Assembly: GCA_030656575.1 (NCBI GenBank)
Contig: JAUSPO010000172.1
Span: forward strand, 1-52,185
Reading direction: 5' to 3'
Source of the DNA: Bacillota bacterium
Lineage (GTDB): Bacteria > Bacillota > Dethiobacteria > DTU022 > UBA8154
Length of the DNA stretch: 52,185 bases
Part shown: positions 33,343-35,775 of the stretch, piece by piece
Numbering within the stretch: position 1 is the first letter of the stretch
How the letters are laid out: each line of letters starts with the position of its first letter
Position numbers and translations under genes: made by a program
The notes under the pieces: model-generated
Database searches by the model: none
Seen by the model: the letters and a program-made list of their open reading frames with translations, nothing else
Told to the model about the DNA's origin: nothing

Positions 33343-33464
33343 ATAGAATTTTGAGTAGAATTATACAATGCAGCTCGGACAGGTCATGCTTTTTTGAAGG
33401 ATAACTGTACATAATATAGGATGAAGCATATTCTGAAGTACTAGTAAAAATGGGGAGATGCGGC

Positions 33465-33683
33465 ATGCAAACTGCTAATCAGATTGCGGTGGTAAAAGTT
33501 TTGGAATTTTGTATTCAAGGTGAGATTGACGGCAATGTCCCTTCTTTGCTCCAGTCTGTTCGGAAAGCATTGGACGACATAAAAAAGGAAGACCCATCCC
33601 TTTCAGGAATGGGCATATCAGAAATGTCTTTCTTTAGCGATACGCAAGGCGTCATCAATCTGAAAGTAATCTTCGAAAATTAA
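33465..33683 (+). CDS. Small conserved-looking hypothetical protein
   Basis: A plus-strand gene of 72 residues starting at the ATG preceded by GGGGAG at seven bases. The sequence MQTANQIAVVKVLEFCIQGE, then SLLQSVRKALDDIKKEDPSL, looks like a compact alpha/beta protein with well-formed amphipathic helices. I recognise no family. It converges on yqeG with only 10 bp between the stops. Confidence 0.55.
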   Translation: MQTANQIAVVKVLEFCIQGEIDGNVPSLLQSVRKALDDIKKEDPSLSGMGISEMSFFSDTQGVINLKVIFEN

Positions 33684-34200: not shown

Positions 34201-34623
34201 ATTTATTAACCTCCTCTAAGGGTCCAAACCGACAGCCGTTGGATTTGGCTATTATTCACAATTTTGCAGGCTGAAAATCTTTCTATTTTATTTTAGTTTG
34301 CACAAAAAGAATTATTATAATATTTTTTTCGGAACAGGTGTAAGATGTCTCCAAAAAAAAGAAGGGAATTTTCAAACCCGCTTATGCAAAATATATTTCT
34401 CATTACAAGTATACAGATAAATACAGCTTTAGACAAGGCATGAAATTGCCACATGACTTGTACATTAATATTCCACTTATGCTAAATGATTATTTTCCAG
34501 GCAATAGTGCATGTTCGACAGAAACAATGAAATTTTATAATGTATAGAAATAGATCCTCTGGAAAAGCTATTTTTGGACAAATAAAACAATTATATGACT
34601 ATTAACTAACGGAGGCGTTGTGT
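34201..34623. other. Divergent intergenic region between yqeG and the selenoprotein gene
   Basis: This gap of 423 bp is AT-rich and has no gene. On the minus strand TTACAC (34338-34343), 18 bases and TATAAT (34314-34319) form a possible yqeG promoter. On the plus strand TCGACA (34515-34520), 15 bases and TATAAT (34536-34541) form a possible promoter for the oxidoreductase. I see no riboswitch. Confidence 0.45.
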
Positions 34624-35775
34624 TTGGCTGCGGTAATAATCCTAGGTGGCGGAATCGGTGGCGTTGTGGCTGCAAATGTGCTCAGTAAGACACTTGATAA
34701 AAAACACAGGATTGTCCTGGTAGACCGCAAAGACAGCCATGTCTACCAGAGCTCTTATCCTTTGACGATCGTTAACAAACGAAACCCAAAAAATATAACC
34801 CGCAGACTGGATATACTTCAGAAAAAAGGCATCGAATTTATTCAAGCGGAAGTAAAAAGCATTAATCCGGAACAATGCAATGTGCAGACGGATAAAGGAA
34901 TAATTGATTATGATTTTTTGATTGTCTCCCCGGGAGTGGAGCATCACCCCGAAACCGTTCCCGGTTTTAAGGATGGGGCCTATAATGTCTATAACTTTGA
35001 TGATGTATCCCGTCTGCAAAATACTTTGAAGGAGTTCAAAAAGGGTAAAATCGTCTTTTTTATCTCCAGTGTTCCCTATACCTACCCTCCTGCCCCTTAC
35101 GAAATCACCTTTCTCCTTGACGCATATTTTCGCGAACGGGGTATCAGGGAAAATGTAGAACTTTCCGTAATCACACCGGAGCCTTCACCGGAAGCATTGG
35201 GCAGGCCTGCCGTTCAAAAAAGATTACGTGACTTGCTCAAGCAGCGTCAGATCGGCTTAACTACAGAAGCCAAGGTACTCTCCCTGGATACTTCCACAAA
35301 TACATTGCACCTAGACCAGGGTATTACAGCAGAGGCAGATCTTTTTCTGGGTGTTCCGTCCCATTGGGGGCCTGGTGTAATGGAAAACACAGGCCTTGTC
35401 ACGGAAGGAAACTGGATCGAAGTAGACCCTCATACTATGCAAACAAAAAATGAACAGATCTATGCCATCGGTGACGCGACAGCTCTTCGTCTGCCAGTTA
35501 TGAGAGTTTGGGCACCGAAAGCAGGAATATTTGCTCACTACCAGTCAGAAGTGGTTGCCAGAAATATTGCATCAAAGATTATGGGAAAGAAGCCAAGTTT
35601 CCGCTTCACTGCAAAGGGAGCTTGAATAATGCTAACCGGGTTCGGTCGAGCCTGTTATTCTTCAGTTCACTACTATGGAAGGCCCAGGCCCTTTATAACG
35701 CTGCATCGTCCAAGCAGGCCGGCCTATTTGGGAAAGATGGCCTTTGAAAAATATTGGTTAAGAAACTGGTTCTAA
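34624..35775 (+). CDS. Selenocysteine-containing SQR-like FAD/NAD-dependent oxidoreductase
   Basis: A flavoprotein of the sulfide:quinone oxidoreductase/NDH-2 type. FAD binding is seen in IILGGGIGGVVAANVLS, and the second dinucleotide and C-terminal motifs in FLIVSPGVEHH and EQIYAIGDATALRLP. The frame meets TGA at 35623-35625 (residue 334). It then continues in the same frame for 49 codons (IMLTGFGRACYSSVHYYGRP and so on, ending GKMAFEKYWLRNWF), which is the family C-terminus. The TGA is in FTAKGA-U, where relatives have F-x-G-K-G-x-C, so it replaces the conserved redox Cys. A SECIS-like hairpin follows directly. The partner Cys of SQR (CPPAPYE) is Tyr here (YPPAPYE). The start is the TTG at 34624 with GGAGG eight bases upstream; TTG 34618 is too close. 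The total is about 383 residues. Confidence 0.88.
35633..35657 (+). promoter_or_regulatory. Bacterial SECIS-like hairpin after the in-frame UGA
   Basis: Right after TGA (35623-35625) the RNA can fold with TAA/TTA (33-35 and 55-57), a bulged C36, and CGGGTTC (37-43) pairing with GAGCCTG (48-54) around the loop GGTC. The first loop G is 19 bases after the TGA, inside the 16-37 base window of bacterial SECIS. Eleven bases separate TGA and the upper stem, the same as in the E. coli fdhF element. The GGU in the loop is the SelB recognition feature. Confidence 0.8.

Follow-up and report, generated by a model that had tools for sequence, protein, structure and literature searches.

In human SQOR, a sulfide:quinone reductase (SQR), Cys201 and Cys379 are the residues of the catalytic trisulfide (PMC12589024). 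A selenoprotein subtype of the type III SQR, with one selenocysteine (Sec) in an HxxU motif, is listed as NCBIfam NF049943 in a 2026 review (PMC13188914).

The locus described here lies in a window of 52,185 nt, by which the whole stretch of DNA analysed is meant, and was annotated initially from its sequence alone as a probable new selenoprotein, an SQR-like flavoprotein with Sec at the conserved redox Cys. According to our main reading, to which we assign a probability of about 0.72 on sequence comparison and a predicted structure, the gene would encode a Sec-decoded flavoprotein of SQR fold, with Sec334 at the position of the sulfide-receiving Cys and a function in sulfur chemistry.

Gene structure and reading frame

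The coding sequence (34624..35775, + strand; 383 aa) starts with TTG, contains one in-frame TGA, ends with TAA and matches Pfam Pyr_redox_2. A Shine-Dalgarno sequence, GGAGG, is located at 34611..34615 (+), 8 bases upstream of the TTG at 34624; an alternative in-frame TTG at 34618 is possible, though it is just 2 bases from the Shine-Dalgarno sequence. The FAD-binding Rossmann motif LGGGIGG (residues 7-13; 34642..34662, +) was identified by its conserved glycines in the alignments. An aromatic C-terminal helix of residues 365-381 (35716..35766, +) was assigned with DSSP on the AlphaFold2 model and is probably a membrane-surface anchor as in SQR.

The UGA codon attributed to Sec, residue 334, is at 35623..35625 (+), and past it the frame remains open for 49 more codons to the TAA at 35773-35775. 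Given the base composition here, 49 open codons are expected by chance with P about 0.07, which is weak evidence alone; beyond chance, these codons align with the conserved C-terminus of the family, as had been proposed initially, and the TGA recurs at the same codon in relatives. A small ORF of 77 aa (window 33450-33683, +), for which Pfam gave no match, has a conserved counterpart close to the Cys-form gene of L100.

Recurrence of the TGA codon among relatives

The search covered 60 relatives plus wider samples. The window gene and 11 relatives made up the 12 TGA members first compared, and a later set contained 15 TGA sequences. TGA was found at the same codon in the 11 other relatives with the motif KGx-TGA, as well as in the partial L027 and in further Dehalobacter copies. 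Carriers in the order of the window genome were G012, G022, G040, G041, G027 and G018, with partial G017 and G001; beyond this order they were G360, G260, G236, G104, G525 and G526, and among these G360, G260 and G236 (the last taken as Dehalobacter restrictus PER-K23) are single-contig genomes. Other orthologs have Cys (TGC/TGT) at this codon; TAA or TAG was found in none, with TGA in many relatives.

Sec and Cys forms were intermixed in the tree, where well-supported branches require no fewer than four switches in the Sec label, and one near-identical Dehalobacter-type protein (L069) carries Cys. The codons after the TGA are under purifying selection (dN 0.19, dS 1.71 against L015). TGG (Trp) occupies the Sec codon in L109 (G454), the same gene as L087; the partner Cys is retained there, the hairpin described below is decayed with a changed loop base (GGC), and the Sec appears to have been lost by a single substitution. 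The initial annotation had held that relatives lacking a Cys, or carrying another sense codon, would argue against Sec. Such relatives do exist, and are harmless to the reading: the Trp of L087/L109 goes with a decayed hairpin, and the paralogs without the Cys (L039, L040 and L011) are also without the partner Cys.

SECIS element and selenocysteine machinery

A bacterial SECIS hairpin of 7 bp with the apical loop GGUC (35644-35647) was identified by folding and comparison at 35637..35654 (+). It begins 11 bases past the TGA, with the stem CGGGUUC/GAGCCUG and the GGUC loop 18 nt from the UGA, and satisfies the published bSECIS rules. The 42 nt following the UGA fold at -9.2 kcal/mol, with the reservation that a different structure is energetically more favourable for the 43-nt stretch including the UGA. 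A single copy of the 16-base SECIS core is present in the window, against an expectation of 0.01 even with 2 mismatches. No Rfam model matched the window SECIS.

The post-TGA codons GGG TTC GGT CGR GCC were wobble-frozen in 12/12 TGA members, bar a purine exchange in the Arg codon that retains a U-A/U-G pair; exceptions are TCC for TTC in L021 and AGA for CGR in L023. Synonymous identity was 0.91 inside the SECIS (+4..+9) versus 0.39 outside, and 0/85 other invariant degenerate columns were codon-invariant. Every TGA member has the 7-bp hairpin except the partial, damaged L027 (6/7 pairs). In L021 a pair is compensated by changes on both sides (UCC/CGG, U-R to C-G), while the stem is broken in its Cys sister L022. 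In the window gene itself, Cys344 (TGT; 35653..35655, +) stands where other TGA forms have Arg and some Cys forms, e.g. L122, have Cys; the hairpin is preserved despite this change via a G-U pair. The wobbles GGG, GGT and GCC were all retained in 14/15 TGA versus 3/11 Cys forms (Fisher P 0.0008, kinship ignored). The SECIS is lost in many Cys forms, and the Cys forms L069 and L072, in which the hairpin is retained, are probably recent Sec-to-Cys changes.

All four genes of the Sec pathway named for checking (selA, selB, selC and selD) are present in the host genome. The tRNA-Sec scored 72.7 bits, SelB 391 bits and SelD 375 bits, the SelD gene carrying its own in-frame TGA plus hairpin. SelA is split, its N-terminal part lying at a contig end (C169) with tRNA-Sec and the remainder at another (C146) beside SelB; tRNA-Sec, selA and selB apparently form one cluster with an assembly gap inside selA. 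SelB presence was rejected as a discriminator of Sec and Cys carriers, as the Cys carriers G309 and G062 have SelB.

With the recurrent TGA, the conserved SECIS and the Sec machinery, UGA 334 is almost certainly decoded as selenocysteine. The selenoprotein claim of the initial annotation is upheld in this respect, as are its frame, TGA and hairpin coordinates, its 11-base spacing and its bacterial SECIS with GGUC loop, the spacing and loop fitting the rules and the wobbles being conserved among TGA forms.

Fold and active site

The best solved relatives were human SQOR and bacterial SQRs. The AlphaFold2 model, built with 33 own and related sequences, reached a pLDDT of 94.9 and matched the SQR of Acidithiobacillus ferrooxidans (AfSQR) with Z 46.9 over 375 residues; Z was 44.4 for human SQOR, and the flavocytochrome c sulfide dehydrogenase flavoprotein (FCSD) and NDH-2 ranked lower. 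The predicted model has the SQR fold with an FAD domain and a C-terminal membrane helix; the fold match and the closest sequences both support the earlier assignment as an SQR-like flavoprotein.

Sec334 aligns with Cys379 of human SQOR and Cys356 of AfSQR, and its partner position with Cys201 and Cys160, respectively. The placement of Sec at the conserved redox Cys is borne out by this alignment and by the Cys of the orthologs; the replacement of the second redox residue was missed in the initial annotation. In the window copy the flavin-side redox Cys position is occupied by Tyr154 (TAC; 35083..35085, +), where every full-length Sec/Cys relative examined has Cys. Both redox residues are present in the other full-length Sec/Cys relatives, and C154Y is confined to the window copy among these forms.

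In seven relatives (L015, L017, L019, L020, L026, L068 and L070) the whole protein contains, apart from the Sec, a single Cys and no further Sec. Because Sec/Cys and partner are lost together in the paralogs L039, L040, L011 and L041, the alignments indicate that the two redox positions work as a pair.

In G041 (L096:1100-3456) the Sec form is followed directly by a paralog without both redox residues (GKAAG, with Gly at the partner site), possibly an inactive partner subunit; a remnant of the same arrangement adjoins L018 in G040. A protein of a Desulfurococcales archaeon (L012; 31-32% identity) carries Cys at each of the two redox sites, and its C-terminal FEKYW helix is similar.

Proposed reaction and alternative explanations

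As proposed, SelB would read UGA 334 as Sec, guided by the downstream SECIS hairpin, to give a single full-length flavoprotein of 383 aa, in which Sec334 would replace the SQR Cys that takes sulfide and bears the sulfane sulfur (Cys379 of human SQOR). In most relatives the Sec would face the conserved flavin-side Cys, and a Sec-S(n)-Cys bridge would be the likely active form. This bridge may accept sulfide or a thiol, with two electrons passing via FAD to a membrane acceptor and a persulfide or polysulfide released; or the enzyme may run in the reverse direction, as a polysulfide- or selenide-handling reductase. The bridge cannot form in the window copy because its flavin-side Cys is Tyr, and there the Sec would have to act alone or the reaction to have changed. 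Sulfur chemistry is likely. The label 'SQR' is used here for the predicted fold and the aligned active-site position.

The strongest alternative accepts the Sec and places the protein outside the sulfide:quinone reductases, either working in reverse or with another substrate (polysulfide, selenide or low-molecular-weight disulfides) and another electron partner. We regard this as a serious possibility, though clearly less probable than the main reading. The carrier lineages are strict anaerobes. In the host genome (99% complete) MqnA/D was not found (no PF02621 match), and MenD fell short of its cut-off (47 versus 244 bits); most other Dethiobacteria carriers tested were likewise without markers of both menaquinone pathways. 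The absence of the partner Cys from the window copy also counts in its favour. Against it, the fold and the Cys/Sec positions are nearest to SQR, and the second Rossmann domain shows, in the alignment, no GxGxxG motif that would bind NAD(P)H. The Dehalobacter carriers also speak against it: G236 and G260 have MenD (459 bits), and menaquinone is produced by Dehalobacter (PMC4751268), where a quinone is a plausible acceptor. Three UbiA-family prenyltransferase-type enzymes are present in the host genome, so a quinone is possible there too; G027 and G032 gave no UbiA-family match at all. The gene neighbourhood is mostly unconserved beyond close relatives, and no partner gene in it points to a substrate.

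We consider it rather unlikely that the clade is a seleno-flavoenzyme subfamily in its own right, confined to strict anaerobes of which many have no recognisable menaquinone pathway. Such enzymes would use the SQR scaffold and Sec in a sulfur or selenium reaction that involves no quinone, with Sec as the sole active-site chalcogen in the window species.

Tyr154 may reflect the use of Sec without a thiol on the FAD side, functional drift, or an assembly error at TAC. Cys344 was considered as a substitute for the lost partner Cys and is a weak candidate, as L121, L122, L124 and L126 have Cys there plus the normal partner Cys. That the window copy is losing SQR function, its gene on the way out while Sec is still decoded, would explain why the change from Cys to Tyr is seen in this copy alone among full-length Sec/Cys forms; we hold it to be improbable, since its SECIS is fully retained, its dN/dS is low, its terminal branch length resembles that of other members and a good Shine-Dalgarno site lies upstream. 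A reading of the TGA as a normal stop or a nonsense mutation, with a decaying tail of homology behind it, could draw on the roughly 7% chance of the open codons and on the mutability of the site seen in L087, but is very hard to reconcile with a codon that is never TAA or TAG, frozen SECIS wobbles, purifying selection downstream and a complete Sec machinery.

Significance

Standard gene calling would truncate the KGxU proteins at the TGA and so remove their redox residue, and the NCBI model now available, with its cut-off, misses the subfamily. Its members form a natural Sec, Cys, Trp and Gly series of one enzyme, and the near-identical Dehalobacter proteins with Sec versus Cys make the contribution of selenium to SQR-type chemistry directly testable. 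They also raise the question of the role that SQR-like enzymes have in anaerobes whose genomes show no recognisable pathway to menaquinone.

Comparison with known systems

By sequence comparison, the window clade is a separate new subfamily, or variant, of a known and little-studied Sec-type SQR. The suggestion of an undescribed or little-known Sec family made in the initial annotation therefore holds for the subfamily, which falls below the NF049943 cut-off, but not for Sec-type SQR as such, which has already been named (NF049943; PMC13188914). The KGxU subfamily was found in complete genomes, including that of Dehalobacter restrictus; Dehalobacter is in culture, which makes the subfamily accessible to experiment.

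NF049943 shares with it the SQR-fold flavoprotein and a Sec at the aligned position; in the Cys members of NF049943 that score over the cut-off (L044-L048), GHANC aligns exactly to the KGAU of the window protein. However, the window protein scores 254.7 bits and its clade 230-255 bits against a cut-off of 525, the motif is KGAU in the window protein and KGxU in the clade instead of HxxU, and the clade is separate and well supported, with a shorter C-terminus. A second Sec SQR-like clade (L024-L026, with L091 alike) also lies below this cut-off; it has the motif SGF[AT][AG]U or CGFAGU followed by I[MIV]E[TS]GRG, and the partner Cys, and L024-L026 show a G-rich hairpin after the TGA and ~30-32% identity to the window protein.

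Human SQOR and the SQRs of A. ferrooxidans and Aquifex share with the window protein a fold that matches from end to end (Z 44-47), FAD and the positions of the Sec (Cys379/Cys356) and of the relatives' partner Cys (Cys201/Cys160), but are 21-25% identical to it, carry Cys in place of Sec and have the partner Cys that the window copy lacks. The FCSD flavoprotein is similar in fold (Z 43.9 to 3vrd), and its central domain PF21706 is weakly matched (26.9 versus 27.0 bits); no cytochrome gene was recognised beside the window gene, however, and the window sequence is nearer to SQR. The CoA-disulfide reductase selenoprotein, an FAD-dependent oxidoreductase, likewise combines Sec with a flavin and falls within the broad disulfide-oxidoreductase superfamily, but belongs to family TIGR03385 and carries the motif UGxP in contrast to KGxU (PMC13188914).
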